From Hyphomicrobiales bacterium (GTDB lineage Bacteria; Pseudomonadota; Alphaproteobacteria; Rhizobiales; Xanthobacteraceae), in contig JAKFVL010000006.1 of NCBI GenBank assembly GCA_021732215.1, positions 248,001 through 312,000 on the forward strand: a stretch of 64,000 nt of DNA, in the 5' to 3' direction. Numbering within the stretch: the stretch's first letter is position 1; each line of letters opens with the position of its first letter. The notes beneath the pieces are model-generated. The model did no database searches and was not told the DNA's origin. It saw nothing but the letters and a program-made list of their open reading frames with translations. This document shows positions 25,396 to 34,398 of this stretch, one piece after another. Made by a program: the position numbers and the translations under genes.

Positions 25396-27108
<1,713 letters not shown>

Positions 27109-29893: not shown

Positions 29894-31546
29894 GTGTTTC
29901 GACTGGGAATCATGATCGCGTTGGTGGCGCTGATTGGGGTGCTGGCCTCAAGTCTTGCCGCCATGCGCGTTTACGATCAGGAACAGTCGCTGGATCGGTT
30001 GGTTCTGGCCCGCTCGATCGACACGCACGCCAACGCGGTTCAGGACAGGCTTGGCGAGCGCGAATTGCTCATGAGGGTGGCCGTCGGGCTGTTCCGGTCC
30101 CCGTCGTTCTATCAATCCGATACATTAAGGCCGTTACGCCCGGCAATCGTTGCTTCGAAGACAGACTTTGCCGTGGTGAGCTGGATATCGCGCATCGCGC
30201 CGAACGATCTCGCCGCAGCGGAAGCCGAGCTCAGGCGCGCTGGTTACCCAAAGACCAACATCCGCAATTACGACGACAGCCCGCTCGACCTCAAGTCGGT
30301 CACGGACCCGCAATGGGTCGTCATGGATGTCGAGCCTAAGGCGGATAATTCTGCGGGTTTTCCGGGCCGCTCGTTGCAGAAGAGCCCGGCGATCGGACCT
30401 GTCCTTGAGCGGACAATCAAGGAGGACAAGCCGATCAGTTCGGATCCTGTGCGATTGTTCGGCGATGGGCCCATGGGAGTGGTACTGGCCGCCGCAGTTT
30501 CGCGGGAAGCAACAAGCGATATCCTCGGATTTATCACAATCTCCTATCGCATCGCGCCGCTGATGTTGCCGAACGACGATGTGTCTCCATTCTCCGTTTC
30601 GCTGATCGATCCGCGAGATGCTTCGCAGGAACTGCGCGCAGATGCCGAAGGCAACGTCACCGTTGCGCAAGCCCAGCGGCCCGACGGGACACAGGGCTGG
30701 GCGCGAACCGTCATTTTCGGCGGCCGTGACTGGACTCTTGCTTACTATCCGAAAATTGAACCGAGCGTGCGCGCGCGAAACATCGCCGGCGTGGTTGCTC
30801 TGATCGGCATGGCACTGACCAGTATCATCTGCGGCTTGTTCGGCTATGTCGCCTACAGCAACTTGCGACTGACTCGCGAGGTCGAAACACGAATTGATTT
30901 TGAACGGCGGCTCACCGCCGTGATCGACGAACTGAACCATCGCGTGAAGAATATTCTGGCCGTGATCCAGTCTATCGTGACCCGAACGGTCAGGCCTGGC
31001 GTAGATTCAAATATCGTCCGTGAGCTTTTGATCGGTCGCATTCATGCGATGTCGCACGTTGTCACGCTTCTAAGTGACAGCCAGTGGCAAGGCGTTAAGC
31101 TCAAGGGTTTGTTCGAAGCCCGCGCGATCCCGAATGCCGATCGCATTTCGCTCGAGGGGCCGGATCTGGTCGTCAGCGCGCGTGCGGCGCAAAGCCTCTC
31201 TCTGCTTTTCTTTGAACTCGCGTCGCATTCGGACGAGGGCCTCTCACTTGTCGGCAAGCACCCCAATGTTGTTGCGCGTTGGTCGATTGAAGGGGAAGGG
31301 CCCGAATCGATGCTTCACTTCCGCTGGGAGGAGTTCAACACCAGTGAAGCAACCCGCCGTCCGGACAGCGATTTCGGCCGCACGTTGCTCGATCGCGTTG
31401 CGCCGGAGGCGCTCGGCGGGACGTCGAAGAACTATTTCACGGATGTCAGCTATGTTTACGAGCTCGTTGCCCCGATGAAGACAGTGCTCGATGCGCCGGA
31501 ATTGGCGCGTACCGGACGCTTGCTGGCTACGCCAAAGCGCATCTGA
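29894..31546 (+). CDS. CHASE-domain HWE-family histidine kinase with degenerate N-box
   Basis: Membrane sensor kinase, 550 aa, beside the ecfG-nepR-phyR module and therefore a candidate input kinase for PhyR. Membrane segments at about 4-23 and 297-320 enclose a periplasmic CHASE-type domain (WISRIAPNDLAAAEAELRR). The HWE/HisKA_2 dimerisation box is intact: ELNHRVKNILAVIQSIV with H349. The ATPase N-box is unusual: FFELASHSDEGLS (about 439-451) stands where family members have HELATNAxKYGALS, so the Mg-binding Asn is His445. The later Trp-Glu (FRWEE) and a G-box-like FGRTLLDRV are kept. Autophosphorylation may be weak or absent. Start GTG 29894. Confidence 0.85.
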   Translation: MFRLGIMIALVALIGVLASSLAAMRVYDQEQSLDRLVLARSIDTHANAVQDRLGERELLMRVAVGLFRSPSFYQSDTLRPLRPAIVASKTDFAVVSWISRIAPNDLAAAEAELRRAGYPKTNIRNYDDSPLDLKSVTDPQWVVMDVEPKADNSAGFPGRSLQKSPAIGPVLERTIKEDKPISSDPVRLFGDGPMGVVLAAAVSREATSDILGFITISYRIAPLMLPNDDVSPFSVSLIDPRDASQELRADAEGNVTVAQAQRPDGTQGWARTVIFGGRDWTLAYYPKIEPSVRARNIAGVVALIGMALTSIICGLFGYVAYSNLRLTREVETRIDFERRLTAVIDELNHRVKNILAVIQSIVTRTVRPGVDSNIVRELLIGRIHAMSHVVTLLSDSQWQGVKLKGLFEARAIPNADRISLEGPDLVVSARAAQSLSLLFFELASHSDEGLSLVGKHPNVVARWSIEGEGPESMLHFRWEEFNTSEATRRPDSDFGRTLLDRVAPEALGGTSKNYFTDVSYVYELVAPMKTVLDAPELARTGRLLATPKRI

Positions 31547-31792: not shown

Positions 31793-32338
31793 TTAGCGGC
31801 CGCCGCCGATGACGGCGCGCACCGTATCGTCGGGGCCGAAGTCGTCTGCCGTATCGACCGACAGCATCGTACTCAGTTTGGATCGAGCCCGATTGACGCG
31901 GCTTTTGATCGTACCGACGGCGCATCCGCAGATCGCGGCAGCATCCTCATACGAGAACCCTGATGCGCCCACGAGGATGAGGGCTTCGCGCTGATCCTGA
32001 GGCAGCTTCTCGAGCGCCGCGCGGAACTCCTCGAATTCGAGGTGCGCGGTCTGGTTCGGCTGCGACTTCAGTGTTTCGGCGTAGCTGCCGTCCGCATCCT
32101 CTACCTCACGCCTCCGTTTGCGGTAATCGGAGCGAAACAGATTGCGCAGAATCGTAAACAGCCACGCTGGCAGATTGGAGCCGGGCTGGAACGAGTCGAT
32201 GTTGGCAAGCGCCCGAAGCAGCGTTTCCTGCACCAGATCGTCGGCGCGATCGCTGTTGCCGCTCAGCGACATGGCGAAAGCGCGGAGGCTCGGCACGGTT
32301 GCGAGAATGTCGTCCCGGAGAGAATCTGTGAGAGGCAT
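31793..32338 (-). CDS. ecfG: General stress sigma factor EcfG
   Basis: ECF15-group sigma factor, 181 aa, that directs RNA polymerase to GGAAC-N16-CGTT type promoters in the alphaproteobacterial general stress response. Region 2 is visible as DRADDLVQETLLRALANIDSF and AWLFTILRNLFRSDYRKR; region 4 as LEKLPQDQREALILVGASG and AICGCAVGTIKSRVNRAR. The C-terminal tail VDTADDFGPDD is also typical. It is held inactive by NepR, whose gene stop overlaps the ecfG start (TGATG). Confidence 0.95.
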   Translation of the reverse strand: MPLTDSLRDDILATVPSLRAFAMSLSGNSDRADDLVQETLLRALANIDSFQPGSNLPAWLFTILRNLFRSDYRKRRREVEDADGSYAETLKSQPNQTAHLEFEEFRAALEKLPQDQREALILVGASGFSYEDAAAICGCAVGTIKSRVNRARSKLSTMLSVDTADDFGPDDTVRAVIGGGR

Positions 32339-32556
32339 CAGTCCCTCCCATCGGTCTTGGCCGGTGTTGCCGCATTGCCGTCCGGGTTATCCAGCTTCCG
32401 GATCAGATCGGCAAAGCGATCCGGCACACCCTGCCGGACGACATCGTCGTACATGGCCCGGAGCTGATGCCCGATCCGCGACTGGATTTCAGAATTCAAC
32501 CCGCCTGATTTGCCAGTTCCGCCGACCCTGGCAGCCTGTGGTTTGTTATCTTTCAT
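32338..32556 (-). CDS. nepR: Anti-sigma factor NepR
   Basis: 72-aa anti-EcfG protein. The conserved two-helix core IGHQLRAMYDDVVRQGVPDR is flanked by disordered Gly/Ala-rich ends, as in NepR. It sequesters EcfG until phosphorylated PhyR binds it. The 1-base overlap with ecfG (TGATG) suggests near-stoichiometric synthesis. phyR is transcribed divergently. Confidence 0.95.
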   Translation of the reverse strand: MKDNKPQAARVGGTGKSGGLNSEIQSRIGHQLRAMYDDVVRQGVPDRFADLIRKLDNPDGNAATPAKTDGRD

Positions 32557-32698
32557 TTCGATCCGACTTTCTCGAGATTTGTAAGGCTAACTCATTGTTA
32601 AATTTGGATTTTCTTGTGTACAATCTCGACTGGGTTGGTCTGAAAATACTGATTGGCTTCGCAAAGCGTATCCGAGAAATAAGTCCCGCCCGTCCAAC

Positions 32699-32738
32699 AA
32701 GTTCCAAGGCAATGGAACTTTTGTCGCTTTCGGGCGTC
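32699..32738. promoter_or_regulatory. Divergent nepR-ecfG / phyR promoter with inverted GGAAC boxes
   Basis: AAGTTCC-N8-GGAACTT (32699-32720) places the EcfG -35 element GGAAC on both strands. For phyR, GGAAC 32714-32718 is followed after exactly 16 bases by CGTC (32735-32738; consensus CGTT). For nepR, the element at the same spacing is ACTT, a poorer match. Autoregulation of the module by EcfG is known in related bacteria; here it is inferred from the motif. Confidence 0.55.
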
Positions 32739-32818: not shown

Positions 32819-33622
32819 ATGTCCCGATCACAGGTTGTTGCCGAACACTTGCCGCTATTGCGGCGCTATGCCCGTGCCTTGACGGGGAACCAGACGTCCG
32901 GAGACGCCTATGTGGCGGCGATGCTGGAAGCTCTGCTGGAAGATCCGGCGCTGCTGGATGAACAGCACGGGCCGCGCGCCGGTTTGTTCAAGATATTCGC
33001 TCAAATCTGGAATTCGGTGTCGGTGAACGAGAATTCCGATGCTCCCTTTGCGCAGGCTGCGTCCGAGCGGCGGCTGTCGAATATCACGCCGCTCCCGCGT
33101 CAGGCATTCCTGCTGTTATCGCTCGAAGGATTTTCAGAGGAAGAGGTTGGTTTTATCCTCGACAGGAACGCTGCTGACGTCCGCCAGCTTGCCGATACCG
33201 CCGGCCGCGAGATGGCTGCGGAGATTGCGACCGACGTGCTTATCATCGAGGATGAAACCTTCATCGCGATGGATCTGGAAAGCCTGGTCAAAAATCTGGG
33301 CCACAACGTTATCGGCGTGGCGCGCACCCATACGGACGCGGTCGCCATGGCGAGCAAGAAAAAGCCCGGCCTGATACTGGCCGATATCCAGCTCGCCGAT
33401 GGCAGCTCGGGCCTCGACGCAGTCAATGAATTGCTCAAGATTTTCGAAGTCCCGGTGGTCTTCATTACCGCCTATCCAGAGCGCTTCCTCACAGGCGAGC
33501 GCCCGGAACCAGCCTTCCTGATCTCGAAGCCGTTCCAGCCCGCAATGGTTTCCGCGGTGGCTAGTCAGGCGTTGTTTTTCCAGCGCAACTCGCGATCCAA
33601 AACGCCAAATGCTGCAGCCTGA
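32819..33622 (+). CDS. phyR: Anti-anti-sigma response regulator PhyR
   Basis: 267-aa master regulator of the general stress response. The N-terminal sigma-like domain (about 1-130, VAEHLPLLRRYARALTGNQ) mimics EcfG to bind NepR. The C-terminal receiver has the acidic pair E144-D145, phosphoacceptor D189 (LADIQLADGSSG), T217 and K237 (ISKPFQP). Phosphorylation exposes the sigma-like domain, which titrates NepR and frees EcfG. Start ATG 32819 follows GGAGTGGGG; upstream in-frame codons are not conserved. Terminator 30 bases downstream. Confidence 0.95.
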   Translation: MSRSQVVAEHLPLLRRYARALTGNQTSGDAYVAAMLEALLEDPALLDEQHGPRAGLFKIFAQIWNSVSVNENSDAPFAQAASERRLSNITPLPRQAFLLLSLEGFSEEEVGFILDRNAADVRQLADTAGREMAAEIATDVLIIEDETFIAMDLESLVKNLGHNVIGVARTHTDAVAMASKKKPGLILADIQLADGSSGLDAVNELLKIFEVPVVFITAYPERFLTGERPEPAFLISKPFQPAMVSAVASQALFFQRNSRSKTPNAAA

Positions 33623-33651: not shown

Positions 33652-33680
33652 AAAACCGGGCGATCTGCCCGGTTTTTTCT
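33652..33680 (+). terminator. Intrinsic terminator after phyR
   Basis: AAAACCGGGC and GCCCGGTTTT pair perfectly around a 5-base loop, with six T's in the run that follows. Confidence 0.93.
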
Positions 33681-33738
33681 TTGACCGTTTGTGAAGGTCA
33701 TTGAACCGGCGAGCGGTGAAACCCGTCAAAGCTCAAGC

Positions 33739-33824
33739 AAAAAAGAAAATGGGGCGCGACCGGCATCACCACGGTCACGCCCCACATAGCCGGTCAATTG
33801 GGGCAGGGGGAAATAACCGGCTGT
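33739..33824 (-). ncRNA. Candidate GsrN-like small RNA of the general stress response
   Basis: On the minus strand, AGCCGGT (33822-33816) pairs with ACCGGCT (33794-33788), exposing a 21-base loop that contains CCCCCTGCCCC. Then comes a 13-bp terminator stem (33784-33772 with 33762-33750, one mismatch) directly followed by TTTTCTTTTTT. This gives an RNA of about 85 nt: a 5' hairpin with a C-rich loop and a rho-independent end. A GGAAC box lies at 33855-33851; at 16-base spacing the -10 is AATT rather than CGTT, which would start transcription near 33824. The Caulobacter stress sRNA GsrN also has a C-rich loop and is encoded near GSR regulators. No sequence alignment was possible. Confidence 0.6.
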
Positions 33825-33900
33825 CCTGATAATTGCGTTCGAGTGCATTCGTTCCCATGCGATCGGCTTGATTTTACCGGGCGTGCCTCAGCCTGTTCCC

Positions 33901-33925
33901 GGAACATTGCGTTCCGGACGCAGTT
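33901..33925 (+). promoter_or_regulatory. EcfG-type promoter, near match, for the 33964 gene
   Basis: GGAAC at 33901-33905, a 16-base spacer, then AGTT at 33922-33925 (consensus CGTT). The start point would be near 33932, about 30 bases before the ATG at 33964. Confidence 0.5.
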
Positions 33926-33963: not shown

Positions 33964-34398
33964 ATGGCTCGGTTCATTTCAGGAGTTCTCGGAGTGGCCA
34001 CCGCAACGCTCGTGATGAGCGCGGCGCATCTGGAAGTTGCTTCGGGTAACGATCTCGATCTCGATACCTTCGGCATGCGGCATGGATCGGCTACGCTCCT
34101 TGCACCCGGATCGGCGCCGCAGATCAATCGCGAGAGCAAGGGCGATCGCAATACTATCGCAGCTCAATCGAAAGAGATTCTGCGTACAGTGTCGATCCAG
34201 GTCGATCAGCTCGCTCATACGTCGGTGCTGATCCGCATACCGGTAGATCGATGGGGAGCGAGTGTCAGTCCTTCGATCCAAAAGCCGGTCAACCGCGATT
34301 CGAAAACGCCGGCGCGCAGGATCGTTGCCTGTGAGCCGGTGGTAAGCGGGCTGACGGAAGTTGCCAAACTGCTCGATTCAGGCCGCTGCATTACCTGA
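33964..34398 (+). CDS. Hypothetical exported protein, probable stress regulon member
   Basis: 144-aa protein with an N-terminal signal-like segment (ARFISGVLGVATATLVMSAA) and then a soluble domain without a family I recognise. Two Cys residues near the C-terminus (RIVACEP and GRCIT) could form a periplasmic disulfide. ATG 33964 has GAGG upstream; an ATG 12 codons earlier would put the signal after polar residues. A near-match EcfG promoter precedes it. It is convergent with the holin-like gene, and a small A+T-rich hairpin at 34398-34415 separates them. Confidence 0.7.
   Translation: MARFISGVLGVATATLVMSAAHLEVASGNDLDLDTFGMRHGSATLLAPGSAPQINRESKGDRNTIAAQSKEILRTVSIQVDQLAHTSVLIRIPVDRWGASVSPSIQKPVNRDSKTPARRIVACEPVVSGLTEVAKLLDSGRCIT

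Follow-up and report, generated by a model that had tools for sequence, protein, structure and literature searches.

The general stress response locus and its promoters

The window, i.e., the whole stretch of 64,000 nucleotides of a Hyphomicrobiales bacterium that was analysed here, contains a general stress response (GSR) module. Two of its genes are located on the minus strand, i.e., ecfG (31793-32338; Pfam Sigma70_r2 and Sigma70_r4_2), which encodes the general stress sigma factor, and nepR (32338-32556; Pfam NepR, 2e-16), which encodes the anti-sigma factor. The phyR gene (32819-33622, plus strand; Pfam PhyR_sigma2, PhyR_sigma-like and Response_reg) encodes a response regulator and anti-anti-sigma factor, and a gene for an HWE/CHASE histidine kinase lies at 29894-31546, beyond ecfG-nepR-phyR. 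In the gap after phyR, an sRNA gene with a predicted transcript of ~86 nt is found at 33739-33824 on the minus strand, convergent with phyR. A module of about 2 kb in which an sRNA is encoded together with sigma factor, anti-sigma factor and anti-anti-sigma factor had been proposed in the initial annotation. The Pfam matches bear out the identity of the three protein genes, and the distance from ecfG (31793) to the far end of the sRNA gene (33824) is indeed ~2.0 kb.

Promoters of the sigma-EcfG type precede several of these genes. The sequence GGAAC-N16-CGTC is present upstream of phyR (32714-32738, plus strand), GGAAC-N16-ACTT is the probable promoter of nepR-ecfG (32681-32705, minus strand), and GGAAC-N16-AGTT (33901-33925, plus strand) precedes a gene at 33964-34398 (plus strand) that is divergent from the sRNA gene. 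Since phyR, the gene at 33964 and probably nepR-ecfG share this promoter type, the whole module appears to be wired to EcfG. The divergent gene has no Pfam match and is kept beside the sRNA gene in relatives, with 35-73% identity. At the GSR loci L333-L360, 94 EcfG-type promoter matches were counted around phyR versus 9-31 for anagram controls, an excess that is consistent with broad autoregulation. The phyR matches in L335, L336, and L350 (G608, G567, and G584, respectively) contain one in-frame TGA each; possibly, these are pseudogenes, read-through gene ends, or sequencing errors. Elsewhere in the window, Rfam assigns 5'ureB_sRNA (RF02514, 127.7 bits) to positions 25549-25837 on the minus strand, antisense to the gene for the urease alpha-subunit (25396-27108, plus strand). 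Most likely, this score reflects conserved urease coding DNA, and the assignment is a false family call as is to be expected in any urease gene.

A conserved RNA gene in the gap after phyR

The predicted sRNA consists of two hairpins joined by a short linker. The 5' hairpin (33788-33822, minus strand), AGCCGGTT-ATTTCCCCCTGCCCCAATT-GACCGGCT, encloses a C-rich loop, CCCCCTGCCCC (33800-33810, minus strand), which is the presumed seed for pairing with mRNAs. It is followed by an intrinsic terminator (33739-33783, minus strand) with a stem of 12 bp, in which the stem-loop GGGGCGTGACCG-TGGTGATGC-CGGTCGCGCCCC extends from 33783 to 33751 and is succeeded by an A and by the T-rich tail TTTTCTTTTTT down to 33739. 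The minimum free energy of the sRNA is -43.1 kcal/mol, as compared with -27.9 +/- 3.2 for shuffled sequences (z -4.78; 0 of 200 shuffles as stable), and its score with the covariance model is 102.7 bits. Thus, the minus-strand hairpin with a C-rich loop and the strong terminator that had been noticed at 33739-33824 withstood closer analysis. The same holds for the placement of the element in the gap after phyR without any overlap, since the stop codon of phyR is at 33622 and phyR is followed by a separate terminator at ~33652-33683. The 5' end of the sRNA would be located at ~33824-33826 and its 3' end within the T run.

The element was first located beside the GSR genes of related genomes by a nucleotide search. 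A covariance model built from six sequences was then run on 249 whole genomes of the family without using any gene information. The sRNA was matched in 102 of them, nearly always as a single copy. In all 33 genomes in which the sRNA and ecfG are found on one contig, both are encoded on one strand, usually with 1.2-3 kb between the sRNA and the start of ecfG and with 9.5-17 kb where DNA has been inserted. As this linkage with ecfG was found without gene information, it shows independently that the weak matches of the model are genuine as well. A separate EcfG-based scan found the sRNA within the 5-kb flank in 48 of 80 loci, the carriers being Rhodopseudomonas palustris and its relatives, Bradyrhizobium (including strains of B. 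diazoefficiens), Afipia, Nitrobacter, and Tardiphaga. The nearest relative of the window is a Hyphomicrobiales metagenome bin. When compared with one other genome of the genus, the sRNA differs by a single gap, with 78 of 79 positions identical and mismatches absent; around it, agreement falls to 22 of 33 positions in the promoter spacer region and to 65 of ~94 in the downstream flank. With the sRNA near-identical and the spacer and flanks diverged, the conserved island evidently stops at the end of the sRNA. A second, partial copy of the sRNA is present in L085 (4166-4232; G162), ~1.5 kb from the full copy; its terminator hairpin is intact and nearly identical, and the C-rich 5' hairpin is missing.

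The fold is strongly reflected in the alignment of 81 distinct homologous rows, three of which are partial or spurious. Both sides have changed in 19 of the 21 base pairs, including 7 of the 8 pairs of the 5' hairpin and 11 of the 12 pairs of the terminator stem, in which 98% of the cells are paired. The covariation score is 0.447 versus 0.230 +/- 0.008 for shuffled and at most 0.12 for slid alignments. In the six-sequence alignment, which had not been fitted to the structure, changes on both sides were already seen in 8 of the 21 pairs. The conservation of loop and terminator in related genomes, on which the initial annotation had staked its proposal, is therefore present. These sequence comparisons confirm that the sRNA gene is real and conserved and not a product of chance, and they define where it begins and ends, how it folds, to which class its promoter belongs, and that it is linked to the GSR locus.

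Upstream of the sRNA, on the strand of the hairpin, the sequence GGAAC is found at 33855-33851, i.e., 33 nt 5' of the hairpin. It is present at the equivalent position in 78 of the 81 homologues, 32-37 nt before the hairpin (32-34 nt in 75 of these); of random 35-nt windows, 3.7% contain this pentamer. In the homologues, a spacer of 16-17 nt separates it from the -10 element, which is most commonly CGTC (22), CGTT (13), or AGTC (9). Judged by its sequence, this conserved combination is a sigma-EcfG promoter. The earlier observation of a GGAAC -35 box at the right distance was correct in this respect, but the -10 position of the window, AATT (33831-33834, minus strand; GGAAC-N16-AATT), is a poor match to CGTC or CGTT and at the weak end of the range among the homologues. 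In the sister genome, the -10 sequence is TGTT. Transcription of the sRNA would, from this promoter, be expected under stress.

Two other readings of the element were rejected on sequence and alignment. It is most improbable that it is merely the terminator or a 3' regulatory structure of phyR: it does lie downstream of that gene, but no T run follows the stem on the plus strand, phyR has a terminator of its own, the homologues retain a minus-strand promoter at a constant distance, and the sRNA persists in several genomes despite the insertion of kilobases between it and ecfG. The idea that the element encodes a small protein, which is prompted by an ATG at 33787 that starts a frame running through the terminator, can practically be discarded, as this ATG is absent from several homologues (e.g., L035), loop and linker contain indels whose lengths are not divisible by three, and the sequence changes are such that base pairing is retained.

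Likeness to GsrN and the search for targets

GsrN of Caulobacter crescentus is a sigma-T-dependent sRNA with a C-rich 5' loop and G-rich targets and is stabilised by Hfq (PMC5869019). Further hallmarks of GsrN are its processing into a stable 5' isoform, its pairing with the leader of katG, and the protection that it confers against peroxide or osmotic stress. It is ~100 nt long and characterised by a sigma-T/EcfG promoter (GGAAC-N16/17-CGTT), an exposed C-rich loop in its 5' half, an intrinsic terminator at its 3' end, and a location that is usually near ecfG-nepR-phyR. The predicted fold of the window's sRNA has both the exposed loop and the terminator. Such a promoter precedes 78 of the 81 homologues, with a perfect -35 and a weak -10 element in the window, and the proximity to the GSR genes is seen in the window and in the 33 genomes mentioned above. 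There are also differences. The 5' stem of GsrN contains, next to the C tract, an inner hairpin, whereas the window's sRNA has one simple hairpin; a site for pairing with katG, as in GsrN, was not seen in the seven genomes analysed; and, in one genome compared, the orientation relative to phyR differs.

BLAST homologues of GsrN were reported in Caulobacteraceae only (Tien, Fiebig and Crosson 2018; PMC5869019). In that paper, GsrN-like genes were also predicted, by position and promoter, in Rhizobiaceae, Brucella, R. palustris, and B. diazoefficiens. The predictions for the latter two species concern the same taxa, the same locus, and the same EcfG promoter as the family described here; they are based on proximity and promoter only, and the text gives no sequence, structure, or covariation. 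As the family occurs in R. palustris and in B. diazoefficiens strains, it is very probably the gene predicted there (PMC5869019). The predicted homologues in Rhizobiaceae and Brucella (PMC5869019) are described as intergenic RNAs that depend on the GSR, are encoded close to its locus, and carry a 5' loop rich in cytosine; the covariance model R2 gave no supported match outside the window's family. BjsR1-BjsR10 (PMC5082802) are likewise sRNAs of Bradyrhizobium, but their promoters are of the RpoD or RpoN types or are unassigned, and EcfG is not mentioned in the paper (PMC5082802). Rfam release 15 contains no family that matches the sRNA at either gathering or permissive thresholds, and the best sub-threshold matches are unrelated.

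The best explanation, which we consider likely, is that the element encodes a sigma-EcfG-controlled, trans-acting sRNA of ~86 nt that pairs via its C-rich loop and works like GsrN. PhyR would free EcfG from NepR, whereupon EcfG-RNA polymerase would transcribe the sRNA. The transcript would fold into the 5' hairpin, presenting the C-rich loop in single-stranded form, and the Rho-independent terminator with its U-rich tail. By analogy with GsrN, the loop would most likely pair in trans with G-rich stretches in mRNA leaders or ribosome-binding sites, probably assisted by Hfq, which would provide the stress response with a post-transcriptional arm, as in Caulobacter.

Two classes of C-rich loops exist in the family, and the C-rich character is retained in both. 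The first, CCCCTGCCCC, is found in 48 of 78 distinct homologues and the second, CCCCTCC or CCCTCCCC, often followed by CGTGCTTGG, in 20 of 78. The terminator loop, TGGTGATGC (33763-33771, minus strand), is unusually conserved as well, with TGGTGATGCC in 48 of 78 and GTGATGCC in 55 of 78 homologues; the strong conservation is seen in the first loop class, i.e., in one subgroup. Since a plain terminator has no need of a conserved loop, this may be a second pairing site.

In seven genomes, 86 exact complements of the loop (GGGGCAGGGG) were found, a count in which the strand opposite the RNA gene is included, versus 36 for the reversed pattern, and no convincing conserved leader site was among them. 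One complement site common to G000, G001, G006, and G074 was dismissed, as it falls within a coding sequence. The katG gene is present in all seven genomes, and the regions upstream of it, which would contain its leader, have no G-rich site in common. Feedback on phyR, ecfG, or nepR was also rejected: the starts of phyR and ecfG are G-rich, yet loop pairing with the start regions of the three genes was no better than that of shuffled loops (mean z -0.29 for phyR, -0.46 for ecfG, and +0.21 for nepR). This lack of success in the target search, together with the conserved terminator loop, could suggest that the sRNA is a sponge for a protein and not an antisense regulator. This is improbable; in this group, we are aware of no RNA-binding protein whose motif is C-rich and would match. 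Moreover, mRNAs are the pairing partners of GsrN and of other C-rich sRNAs (PMC5869019).

Inheritance or reinvention

The initial annotation had called the sRNA GsrN-like. As a statement on function this is reasonable, given the promoter, the loop, the locus, and the agreement with the published prediction (PMC5869019), and the sRNA likely works like GsrN. As a statement on descent, by which the sRNA would belong to the GsrN family, it is unsupported, because R2 misses the GsrN of Caulobacteraceae, the topology of the 5' part differs, and the katG site has no common counterpart; from its sequence, the sRNA is not demonstrably a GsrN orthologue. A Caulobacteraceae-type GsrN gene, assigned by its loop sequence, adjoins phyR in L123, with GGAAC-N16-CGTT, a C7 tract, the inner hairpin, and a terminator. 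When R2 was run unfiltered on L123, the best score was 12.2 bits, at a position away from GsrN.

Nevertheless, the sRNA may be a true GsrN orthologue that diverged past recognition, one ancestral GSR sRNA having been inherited with phyR-nepR-ecfG across the Alphaproteobacteria. We regard this as possible, at somewhat over one chance in three; it concerns the origin of the sRNA and is compatible with the GsrN-like mode of action favoured above. The sRNA agrees with GsrN in the class of its promoter, its neighbourhood, the C-rich loop on its 5' side, and the terminator at its 3' end; the second loop class (CCCCCCTCCCCCCGTGCTTGG) resembles the loop of GsrN (CCCCCCGACTTGA), and similar RNAs adjoin phyR in further families of this order. 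Besides the failure of R2 to detect GsrN in Caulobacteraceae, the missing inner hairpin, and the unlike orientation in the genome compared, the matches outside the family argue against it. R2 found no supported match elsewhere in the order or class, and none of the weak matches in L142-L152 has an EcfG promoter before the matching RNA. Among them, one is the sequence directly after phyR, and those in L142 and L148 are C-rich hairpins without a GGAAC box.

Further families of the order have candidate GsrN-like RNAs next to phyR, i.e., in L337 (2367, plus strand), L346 (3648, minus strand), and L355 (3664, minus strand). Their layout is alike, with an EcfG promoter, a stem with a pyrimidine- or C-rich loop, and a terminator, and their sequences cannot be aligned with that of the window's sRNA. 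This layout was found three times behind 94 EcfG-type promoters and not once behind 75 anagram controls (four anagrams). Perhaps, then, different families acquired their C-rich GSR sRNAs independently, by new origin or by replacement, and RNAs of separate descent do the same job. This, too, is a matter of origin and not of function, and it remains a doubtful proposition: there are three cases only, and short, fast-evolving RNAs quickly lose similarity, at a pace that is illustrated by the two loop classes within one family. Tentative to the same degree is the broader scenario in which Alphaproteobacteria repeatedly and independently gained a sigma-EcfG-driven sRNA with a C-rich loop at the stress locus, the family described here and GsrN being unrelated and the former being a two-seed RNA that uses both its 5' loop and its terminator loop.

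In the Bradyrhizobium-Rhodopseudomonas lineage, the PhyR-EcfG cascade has an influence on symbiosis and on survival under stress. RNAs of this kind were known before, and one had already been predicted for this lineage in 2018 (PMC5869019). What is new is a defined family, with its structure and covariation, the evidence for its promoter, and its two loop classes. Thereby, a prediction by position and promoter becomes, for this lineage, a defined family of RNAs for which covariation, a promoter, and predicted ends are described, and it can now be tested whether a post-transcriptional arm is general in the stress response of Alphaproteobacteria and whether this arm was passed down or invented anew.
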